Shown: in pieces, positions 4,298 to 55,118 of the stretch | How the letters are laid out: each line of letters begins with the position of its first letter | How positions within the stretch are numbered: the first letter of the stretch is position 1 | Assembly (NCBI GenBank): GCA_009692065.1 | Contig: SHZY01000006.1 | Location: forward strand, 1 to 64,000 | Direction: 5' to 3' | Source of the DNA: Gemmataceae bacterium | GTDB lineage: Bacteria; Planctomycetota; Planctomycetia; Gemmatales; Gemmataceae | DNA: 64,000 bases | Notes under the pieces: model-generated | What the model was told of the DNA's origin: nothing | The model's input: only the letters and a program-made list of their open reading frames with translations | Database searches by the model: none | Translations under genes and position numbers: made by a program

Positions 4298-4312
4298 TGC
4301 CCCGAATTCGTC

Positions 4313-4362
4313 GCTTGCGGCTTAGCGTTCGCGAGACGCCACGCGAACGCTAAGCCGCAAGC
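4313..4362. repeat. Palindromic repeat, family A, copy 1
   Basis: Perfect 21-bp arms (gcttgcggcttagcgttcgcg) around an 8-nt loop, 16 nt after the kinase stop codon. It has no T-tract, so it is not a classic intrinsic terminator. Confidence 0.92.
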
Positions 4363-4389
4363 GGCAAACTGCGAAACGGGGATATTGCA

Positions 4390-8011: not shown

Positions 8012-8065
8012 CCGCTTGCCGTTTAGCGTTCGCGTGGCGCCGTGCGAACGCTAAACGGCAAGCGG
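8012..8065. repeat. Palindromic repeat, family A, copy 2
   Basis: Arms of 22 bp (ccgcttgccgtttagcgttc plus gc) fold perfectly. The element fills the whole gap between two convergent genes, 8 nt from one stop and directly against the other, and could act as a two-way 3'-end hairpin. Confidence 0.92.
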
Positions 8066-15853: not shown

Positions 15854-17710
15854 ATGGGTTACGCCAGTCTACGCGCCTGTGTGTCGGACCTCGAACGGAC
15901 GGGCCAGCTCGTGCGCATCGACGAGGAGATCGACGCGCGCCTCGAGGCCGCCGAGATCCAGCGGCGCGTCTATCAGGCGAAAGGCCCCGCTCTCCTCTTC
16001 ACACGCGTCAAGGATTGCCGATTCCCGATGGTCTCCAATCTCTTCGGCACCCTCGAACGCACGCGCTTCCTCTTCCGCGACATGCTCGATGCCGTTCGGC
16101 ATCTCGTTGAGCTCAAGATCGATCCGGGCAACTTCTGGAAGAACCCGTGGCGCTATCGCGATGTGCCGCGCACGCTGTGGTTTCTGCGGCCCAAGTTCAT
16201 GCGCTCGGGGCCGATCCTCGAAGCAACGGCTTCGATACGCGATCTGCCGCAGCAGGTGTCGTGGCCCAACGACGGCGGCGCGTTCATCACGTTGCCCCAG
16301 GTCTACACCGAGGACGCCGATCGCCCGGGCTGGCGGCATTCGAATCTCGGCATGTATCGCGTGCAGCTTTCGGGGAACCAGTACGAGCCGAATCGGCAGG
16401 TCGGCCTGCACTACCAGATCCACCGCGGCATTGGCGTGCATCACGCGGCGGCGATTCGCAAGGGGGTGCCGTTCCGCGTCAGCATTTTCATCGGCGGCCC
16501 ACCGGCCATGACGCTCTCTGCCGTGATGCCGTTGCCTGAAGGCATGTCGGAGTTGACGTTCGCGGGCGCATTGGGAGGCCGGCGTGTGCGCTTGATCTCG
16601 CGTGAAAGCCCAGGGACGGCCGTCCCTGGGCTTTCAGCAGAGGAGAGAACGATGGTGATCGCCGCCGATGCGGATTTCTGCATTACGGGGACAGTGGACC
16701 CCGATTTGCAACTCCCCGAAGGTCCGTTCGGCGATCATCTCGGCTATTACAGCCTGGCGCATCCGTTTTCGGTCCTGAAGGTCGAGCAGGTGTTTCATCG
16801 CAAGGACGCGATCTGGCCGTTCACCGTGGTCGGCCGGCCGCCGCAGGAAGACACCAGCTTCGGCGCGATCATCCACGAAATCACGGGGCCGATCATCCCG
16901 ACCGTCGTGCACGGCGTCCACGCGGTTCACGCCGTCGATGCGGCGGGCGTGCATCCGTTGCTGCTTGCGATCGGCAGCGAGCGCTATGTGCCGTATGCGC
17001 CGTTACGGAAGCCGCAGGAGTTGCTGACGAGCGCGAACGCGATCCTCGGTCAAGGTCAGTTGTCGCTGGCGAAGTACCTGTTGATGATCGCGAAGGAAGA
17101 CGCACCGGACTTGGAGATCCACGACATCCCGCGCTTTTTCGCGCACCTCTTGGAGCGCATCGACTGGGCCAACGACGTGCATTTCCAGACGCGGACGACG
17201 ATCGACACGCTCGACTATTCGGGATCGGGCTTGAATGAAGGCTCGAAGGTGGTGCTGGCCGCCGTCGGCCCGCCGCGCCGCAAGTTGCCGACGGAATTGC
17301 CGAGCGATTTGCGCCTGCCGGACGGATTCAGCGATCCGCGCTTGTGCCTGCCCGGAGTAATAGCAATCACGAGCCGCGACCGTAAGGGAGCGGAGGATTT
17401 CTGCGCTTTCTATCGACCGACCGATGCGATCAACGCGTTCCCGCTGATCGTGCTGGTCGATGACGCCGAGTTCACGGCTCGCACGCTCAACAACTTCCTG
17501 TGGGTGACGTTCACGCGTTCCAACCCCGCGGCCGACATCGCCGGCATCGGCGCGTTCGTGTCGCAAAAGCACTGGGGTTGCCGGGGATCGCTGGTGATCG
17601 ACGCGCGAATCAAGCCGCATCACGCGCCGCCCTTGGTGGAGGATTCGGAAGTGACGAAGCGCGTCGATGCGCTCGGAGCGCCGGGCCGGCCGCTACATGG
17701 CATTATTTGA
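15854..17710 (+). CDS. ubiD: UbiD-family prenylated-FMN decarboxylase, carrying an in-frame palindrome
   Basis: 618 residues. UbiD enzymes are (de)carboxylases that use prenylated FMN made by UbiX; no ubiX gene is in view. Family motifs visible are FIGGPPAMTL, EGPFGDHLGYYS and the C-terminal SQKHWGCRGSLVIDAR. In this group the enzyme often acts in quinone synthesis, and mqnD lies nearby in the window, so a futalosine-pathway (MqnL-like) role is possible but unproven. About 14 residues around 248-262 (SPGTAVPGLSAEE) are encoded by a perfect 32-bp palindrome at 16604-16635 and have no counterpart in the expected family pattern, where the strand before would run directly into MVIAADADF. Confidence 0.88.
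   Translation: MGYASLRACVSDLERTGQLVRIDEEIDARLEAAEIQRRVYQAKGPALLFTRVKDCRFPMVSNLFGTLERTRFLFRDMLDAVRHLVELKIDPGNFWKNPWRYRDVPRTLWFLRPKFMRSGPILEATASIRDLPQQVSWPNDGGAFITLPQVYTEDADRPGWRHSNLGMYRVQLSGNQYEPNRQVGLHYQIHRGIGVHHAAAIRKGVPFRVSIFIGGPPAMTLSAVMPLPEGMSELTFAGALGGRRVRLISRESPGTAVPGLSAEERTMVIAADADFCITGTVDPDLQLPEGPFGDHLGYYSLAHPFSVLKVEQVFHRKDAIWPFTVVGRPPQEDTSFGAIIHEITGPIIPTVVHGVHAVHAVDAAGVHPLLLAIGSERYVPYAPLRKPQELLTSANAILGQGQLSLAKYLLMIAKEDAPDLEIHDIPRFFAHLLERIDWANDVHFQTRTTIDTLDYSGSGLNEGSKVVLAAVGPPRRKLPTELPSDLRLPDGFSDPRLCLPGVIAITSRDRKGAEDFCAFYRPTDAINAFPLIVLVDDAEFTARTLNNFLWVTFTRSNPAADIAGIGAFVSQKHWGCRGSLVIDARIKPHHAPPLVEDSEVTKRVDALGAPGRPLHGII
16604..16635. repeat. Palindromic repeat, family C, inside ubiD
   Basis: Perfect palindrome with 16-bp arms gaaagcccagggacgg and ccgtccctgggctttc. 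The same sequence occurs intergenically at 55083-55118. Here it is translated. Confidence 0.92.
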
Positions 17711-28400: not shown

Positions 28401-29165
28401 CAGATCGAGCTGGCCGACTTATCCGTGGGACAGGATTCCAATCCTGTCCAACCAACGACAGAATTGGAGTCCTGTCCCACACCGTTCGACCCCGCGGCTA
28501 CCCAGCAAGAAATCGATGAGTTGCGTCGCAAGCTCGGCCGGCTCGGCAACGTGAACCTGGCCGCGCTCGAAGAACTGCAAGATCTCGAACGCCGGGCCAC
28601 CGAACTGCGAACGCAGTTCGACGATCTGACGTCCGCCAAGAAATCTGCTGAAGAGATCATCGCCAAGATCAACGTGGATAGCAAACGCCTATTCATGGAA
28701 ACGTTCGCCGTGGTGCGCACTCACTTCCAGGAGTTGTTCCGCAAGCTCTTCGGCGGCGGCATGGCGGATGTTGTGCTGGAGGACGAAAACGACGTACTCG
28801 AGTCCGGCATCGACATCATCGCCCGCCCGCCCGGCAAAGAACTGCGCAGCATCACCTTGATGTCGGGCGGCGAGAAGACGCTGACCGCCGTCGCGCTCTT
28901 GCTCGCTGTGTTCCGCTCGAAGCCCAGCCCGTTCTGCCTCCTGGACGAAGTCGATGCCGCTCTGGATGAAGCGAACATCGCGCGCTTCACCGCGGTCCTG
29001 CGCGAATTTTTGGAGCTGTCGCAATTCATCATCGTCACGCATTCGAAGAAGACGATGGCTTGCGCCGACACGCTCTACGGCATCACCATGCAGGAATCGG
29101 GCATCTCCAAACAAGTGACGATCCGCTTCGAGGATTGGGTGGAGGAGAAGGCGCAGGCGTCGTGA
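25479..29165 (+). CDS. smc: Chromosome segregation protein SMC with an in-frame palindrome
   Basis: 1228 residues, typical for bacterial SMC, the condensin ATPase that forms loops and segregates the chromosome. Walker A is GPNGSGKS at 30-37. A long coiled coil runs to a hinge around 500-650 ([19 protein letters not shown]), a return coiled coil follows, and then the C-terminal head with signature LMSGGEKTL near 1128 and Walker [12 protein letters not shown]. Residues about 982-1001 ([10 protein letters not shown]...) are encoded by a family B palindrome at 28425-28480, at the end of the return coiled coil near the head. The frame stays open, so the protein should be full length. ScpA/ScpB genes are not in view. 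Confidence 0.96.
28425..28480. repeat. Palindromic repeat, family B, inside smc
   Basis: Inverted repeat gtgggacaggattccaatcc ... ggagtcctgtcccac of 56 bp. It is homologous to the intergenic copy at 2545-2606. It is translated in frame and adds about 19-20 residues. Confidence 0.92.
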
Positions 29166-45235: not shown

Positions 45236-45295
45236 TTGCCGCTTGCGGCTTAGCGTTCGCAAGGCGCCACGTGAGCGCTAAGCCGCAAGCGGCAA
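45236..45295. repeat. Palindromic repeat, family A, copy 7
   Basis: The arms ttgccgcttgcggcttagcg and cgctaagccgcaagcggcaa enclose a 20-nt loop. It lies 8 nt after the transporter stop and 20 nt before the next start. Confidence 0.92.
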
Positions 45296-46402: not shown

Positions 46403-46458
46403 GCCGCTTGCGGCTTAGCGTTCGCGTGGTGCCTTGCGAACGCTAAGCCGCAAGCGGC
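46403..46458. repeat. Palindromic repeat, family A, copy 8
   Basis: The arms gccgcttgcggcttagcgtt-cgc and its exact complement enclose a 10-nt loop. It lies 18 nt after the preceding stop and 13 nt before the reductase start. Confidence 0.93.
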
Positions 46459-48717: not shown

Positions 48718-48720
48718 ATT

Positions 48721-48776
48721 GCCGCTTGCGGCTTAGCGCTCGCCGGGCGCCACGCGAACGCTAAGCCGCAAGCGGC
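48721..48776. repeat. Palindromic repeat, family A, copy 9
   Basis: The arms gccgcttgcggcttagcg and cgctaagccgcaagcggc start 4 nt after the reductase stop and end 15 nt before the ferredoxin start. Confidence 0.92.
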
Positions 48777-48790
48777 GAAAACGGAGCGAC

Positions 48791-55082: not shown

Positions 55083-55118
55083 CCGAAAGCCCAGGGACGG
55101 CCGTCCCTGGGCTTTCGG
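55083..55118. repeat. Palindromic repeat, family C, intergenic copy
   Basis: Perfect palindrome with arms ccgaaagcccagggacgg and ccgtccctgggctttcgg. It is the same core as the one translated inside ubiD. Confidence 0.92.

Follow-up and report, generated by a model that had tools for sequence, protein, structure and literature searches.

The 64-kb stretch of DNA that we analyzed (the window hereafter; contig C246 of the 5.97-Mb draft genome, in 255 contigs, of a Gemmataceae-type planctomycete) carries a gene for a UbiD-family decarboxylase, whose 615-amino-acid product is matched by the Pfam models UbiD_N, UbiD, and UbiD_C. Within this gene lies a perfect 34-bp palindrome with 17-bp arms, no mismatch, and no spacer (Table 1); an earlier sequence-only reading of this DNA had found it at the right place but had made it one pair too short. 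The RNA of the palindrome is predicted to fold with -41.3 kcal/mol (z -5.9), and the palindrome is read in frame by the UbiD protein as ...RLISR-ESPGTAVPGLS-AEERTMVIAADADF. Since the AlphaFold model (six sequences) was poor, with a pLDDT of 35, we placed the loop by alignment to the Escherichia coli UbiD protein (2idb) and to the proteins of congeners. The second, intergenic copy proposed in the same reading is present as well, and codon-usage scoring detected no coding signal on either of its flanks.

Table 1. Features of the window discussed in the text.
Feature	Position	Strand	Remarks
UbiD-family decarboxylase gene	15854..17710	+	palindrome in variable loop before the AADADF strand
Family-A palindrome TGAAAGCCCAGGGACGG/CCGTCCCTGGGCTTTCA	16603..16636	.	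translated in phase 1, (E)SPGTAVPGL(S)
Second family-A copy	55083..55118	.	non-coding, 18-bp arms

A search of the genome with the core GCCCAGGGACGNNCGTCCCTGGGC, allowing at most three mismatches, returned 66 sites, while the reversed control pattern returned none. These data rule out a chance origin of this palindrome family (family A) and support the proposal that the ubiD palindrome is an inserted, dispersed element. With at most one mismatch, family A is represented by 21 sites in the congener G003 and four in G001 and is absent from the remaining four of the congeners G001 to G006 (the genome under study is G000); five sites were found in G031, a member of another genus. The named relatives with the element are Gemmataceae and other planctomycetes, and Limnoglobus roseus and Fimbriiglobus are among those with exact copies. 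Among viral contigs, only a single one carries family-A copies; a search for carriage on plasmids gave no match, and none to known structured RNAs in Rfam was obtained within the window. A candidate with four mismatches (position 3977 of L082; L numbers denote fetched loci) was dropped as native coding sequence. The copies have in common a unit (AAAGCCCAGGGACGGCCGTCCCTGGGCTTT) of about 28-30 bp, probably 30 bp in length; some G/C is seen four positions outside it, and apart from AAA/TTT and the weak G at -4 the flanks are not conserved.

The stem of family A covaries: across all 56 distinct sequences, two-sided changes were seen in 7 of 13 pairs, compared to 2.2 in shuffled sets. Such compensated changes would also be left behind if template switching at quasi-palindromes, without any transposase, had made or repaired the palindromes locally, and four L. 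roseus copies with arms 13-18 bp longer than the core and largely specific to their locus could be read in the same way. Nevertheless, more than 100 unrelated sites, spread over several genera, share one near-identical core, and a transposase gene of the RAYT type is flanked by family A; together, these facts make a purely local origin highly improbable. The long arms of these copies (L011, L012, L022, and L030) consist of perfectly complementary sequence past the core, as if an insertion in the hairpin loop or fold-back copying had taken place.

For 57 of the 66 sites, we fetched the surrounding DNA and gave each flank a codon-usage score, with gene calls from a home-made codon model trained on long open reading frames. 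At about 26 of these sites, the copy is contained in a single open frame whose two flanks show coding signal or visible homology. According to Pfam, the hosts include IleRS, MutL, aconitase, MnmA, aldehyde dehydrogenase, penicillin amidase, an MFS transporter, galactarate/altronate dehydratase, a glycosyltransferase, and an AIRS-domain protein like ThiL; most inserts are situated within or between the matched domains. In G003, nearly all well-preserved family-A copies are inside genes. By our own count, 22 of the 31 non-coding copies are found no more than 20 bp after a stop codon, and few lie between divergent genes; the same placement of REPs behind stop codons is described by Di Nocera et al. 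(PMC3733652). Together with the covariation of the stem, this placement would suit a hairpin kept for a function in mRNA or DNA, for instance as terminator, mRNA stabiliser, or site of ribosome pausing at a domain border, so that the intragenic copies would be signals and not passengers. Yet the U-tract of 3-4 T is too short for a good intrinsic terminator.

To follow the reading phase of the inserted copies, we scored 118 distinct copies from all genomes examined, leaving the element itself out of the score. Forty-nine of these have coding signal on both sides, and every one of them is in frame, far more than the one in three against which the sequence-only reading had suggested testing them. 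Grouping by homologous host gene reduces these copies to 40 families, which are divided between phase 1 (SPGTAVPGL; 20 families) and phase 0 (AQGRPSLG; 20 families), with none in phase 2 (KPRDGRPWAF). The chance of finding zero of 40 in phase 2 is (2/3)^40 = 9e-8; shifting the score threshold anywhere between 4 and 15 did not alter this zero, and the palindrome contains no stop codon in any of its three frames. The simplest reading of the phase bias is selection on the peptide. If the transposase preferred targets at particular codon positions, such a bias could arise as well, and the codons of the hosts are indeed GC-rich and non-random. We consider this unlikely, since no conserved flank motif other than the AAA/TTT and the weak G at -4 is present, and it is phase 1, not phase 2, that would suffer from stop codons at the junction.

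Selection for in-frame insertions, as postulated before from the sequence, is thus in line with the excess of in-frame copies, whereas the argument from which it had been derived (32 bp is not a multiple of three, so that flanking bases or a target duplication must have restored the frame) fails because the common unit is about 28-30 bp long. The target duplication itself was sought over 81 copies and was found with no assumed unit length, direct repeats in the flanks showing no excess; isolated low P values in this analysis were as frequent as expected from many tests. Y1 transposases of the IS200/RAYT type are known to leave no target duplication when they insert. The in-frame status of the copies requires only purifying selection and a unit whose length is a multiple of three.

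At the ubiD site, the congeners G004, G005, and G006 have the shortest loop and lack the insert, and the alignment with E. coli UbiD exhibits a gap of 12 residues at its position. The previous estimate of about 14 added residues is therefore close, with 12 relative to E. coli UbiD and 13-14 relative to these three congeners. A close empty site that would give the exact size of the insertion was not found among the congeners, which are about 80% identical and have diverged loops. In palindrome-free congeners, the UbiD loop is mostly shorter; conservation of the peptide without the palindrome, which would have spoken against an insertion, is not seen in G002, G004, G005, and G006, while the comparison with G001 is ambiguous because its loop, SSPPAPIPG, is similar to the insert peptide in composition and could be a decayed family-A copy.

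The ubiD gene of G003 contains an unrelated palindrome (GTTAGCCGGCAGCGCAAGCGACGG...) at the same place. The assembly is broken within this palindrome, which is split over two contig ends (end of L044, start of L043) that overlap by 12 bp; from our own reading of the sequence, a join across it would be in frame. This break suggests that genes in draft assemblies are fragmented at the hairpins they contain. The same type of palindrome recurs in frame in three further G003 genes, where it is read as LAGRASDG...PSLARPAN.

Other proteins share this pattern of different palindromes at corresponding positions. For IleRS, the genes of G000 and G003 hold family A, and those of G001 and G002 hold two other palindromes. 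The aldehyde dehydrogenase gene has family A in G000 and, at a different offset, in G003; a second palindrome occupies it in G001 and G005, and G002 has yet another one. We also noticed a palindrome of 51-55 bp in the aldehyde dehydrogenase genes of two congeners (L102, about 1734-1788; L101, about 1736-1786), read as GQAFQPDxQAGKPDL at the loop that holds family A in G000. Among 53 orthologous sites without family A (after removal of one duplicate row), 11 coincide with the strongest inverted repeat of the gene concerned; this is far above chance but should be read as an enrichment, because some of these repeats may be shared by descent and would then not be independent events.

At four sites common to G000 and G003, the element has accumulated only 4 synonymous changes in 33 codons, while its flanks differ at 35-40% of the codons for identical residues (P 0.0015). 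Either the hairpin is under constraint, or the copies convert one another. Both the low synonymous divergence and the frequency of other palindromes in the loops of sister species can be cited for the role in mRNA or DNA considered above. Against it stand the lack of any hairpin at the site in most orthologues, the phase filter, which acts on the peptide and is not predicted by a pure RNA role, and the fact that recent spread or gene conversion also yields intact palindromes; on balance, we regard such a role as the reason for retention as improbable. A bolder combination, in which RAYT-driven palindromes are a standing source of loops in this lineage, unrelated REP families repeatedly refill the same loop of essential enzymes, and a co-translational or mRNA role preserves the hairpin in addition to the peptide, is speculative and in our estimation unlikely to hold.

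A candidate for the enzyme that mobilizes family A comes from L. roseus. In locus L034, a RAYT-like gene of about 190 codons has a family-A copy at each end: one lies 19 bp before the homologous region, and the other follows that region after 10 bp and is read as the C-terminus of the transposase (ESPGTAVPGLS). Family A likewise borders a RAYT-like gene on both sides in G003 (L185/L206), and on one side in L021. An HxH motif and a Tyr residue are invariant in ten homologues of the transposase. Its predicted structure (pLDDT 75) found 4er8 as the top Foldseek match (E 3.4e-5), a REP-associated tyrosine transposase bound to a REP hairpin; ISDra2 and TnpA of the IS200 type were the next matches. 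Judged from the invariant residues and this model, the protein possesses the HUH and Tyr elements of the Y1 fold. The cognate proteins alone gave no significant match to NCBIfam or Pfam, but a homologue at 40% identity matches the model of the REP-associated tyrosine transposase with 1.5e-9, below the curated cut-off.

Most of the nearer homologues of the transposase lie between strong hairpins of their own. In the 255-contig draft of G000, no close copy of the cognate RAYT was found; the RAYT that is present (C239, L198) is 34% identical and is flanked by sister hairpins, which share the AGCCCAGGG/CCCTGGGCT stem with family A but differ from it at the apex. The wider pattern CCCAGGGN{6,30}CCCTGGG matches 26-136 sites per congener genome, and its reversed control matches none. 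Hairpins of the form CCCAGGG...CCCTGGG also accompany two IS200-like transposase genes of G003, on both sides in L201 (569-597 and 1148-1176) and nearby on one side in L202 (359-392 and 495-528).

Since family A flanks a RAYT-like gene whose product has a 4er8-like predicted fold, we class it as a REP that lacks the GTAG/CGTC tag, and the ubiD palindrome is a real, translated copy of this RAYT-linked REP. The family is probably a non-autonomous hairpin spread by a RAYT-like Y1/HUH transposase, with survivors filtered by frame, loop, and peptide. The enzyme would move family A as a single-stranded hairpin, and its insertion would leave no target duplication. Copies outside genes would survive mainly just behind stop codons, and those in genes only if the frame is kept, the loop is tolerant, and the peptide is SPGTAVPGL or AQGRPSLG. 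The ubiD copy would be one such survivor, presumably moved by the cognate RAYT. Dispersal, phase filter, stop-codon placement, and the palindrome-flanked transposase genes of Limnoglobus and G003 are direct observations in this scheme, and the RAYT fold is its predicted component.

REPs and RPEs inside genes are already known as a class. Family A resembles the REP/RAYT (TnpA_REP) systems as a dispersed hairpin in the 20-40 bp range (28-34 bp, 66 copies) that is found behind stop codons and brackets the gene of a Y1 transposase with a fold nearest to 4er8. It differs from them as a perfect palindrome; no unpaired GTAG or CGTC is present at its end, the hairpin being symmetric and its flanks unconserved beyond -4, and its transposase has diverged too far to pass the cut-offs of NCBIfam and Pfam. 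Rickettsia palindromic elements (RPEs), about 150 bp long (PMC10969869), occur in frame in many unrelated functional genes, as also stated in PMC3733652, according to which some RPE types are CGTC-tagged. Like RPEs, family A is present in frame in unrelated genes (40 families in its case), but by comparison with these published descriptions it is shorter, at about 30 bp, and planctomycete. Di Nocera et al. (2013, PMC3733652) also report GTAG/CGTC REPs in open reading frames of several phyla, some in tRNA synthetase or repair genes, and different REPs at about the same site in recB of Xanthomonas campestris and X. oryzae; a quantified same-site reuse or phase filter does not appear in the parts of that paper considered here. 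In contrast, same-site reuse here concerns several proteins, several unrelated palindrome families, and a filtered phase. Perfect inverted repeats of up to 284 bp are translated in mitochondrial genes of Nematomorpha (PMC6649704), whereas family A is short and bacterial, and the target site duplication typical of MITEs of DDE transposons is absent from the 81 copies. As far as the literature considered here shows, neither the untagged family and its link to a RAYT nor the strict phase filter nor the recurrent occupation of the same loops has been described. These findings add an untagged planctomycete family, tied to a specific transposase, to the protein-coding palindromes of Rickettsia and of tagged REPs; with the 0/40 phase result and the loop reuse, the idea that mobile DNA supplies protein loops becomes directly testable by genome comparison.

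The window contains further palindromes. One from another family (GGACAGGATTCCAATCCTGTCC; 28425-28480) lies in an open coding frame and is read as 19 residues, and a related palindrome at 2548-2603 is non-coding. Longer palindromes of the GCCGCTTGCGGCTTAGCG type are located at 4307-4368, 8012-8065, 45236-45295, 46403-46458, and 48719-48778; none was classed as coding within the window, and their stems contain stop codons.
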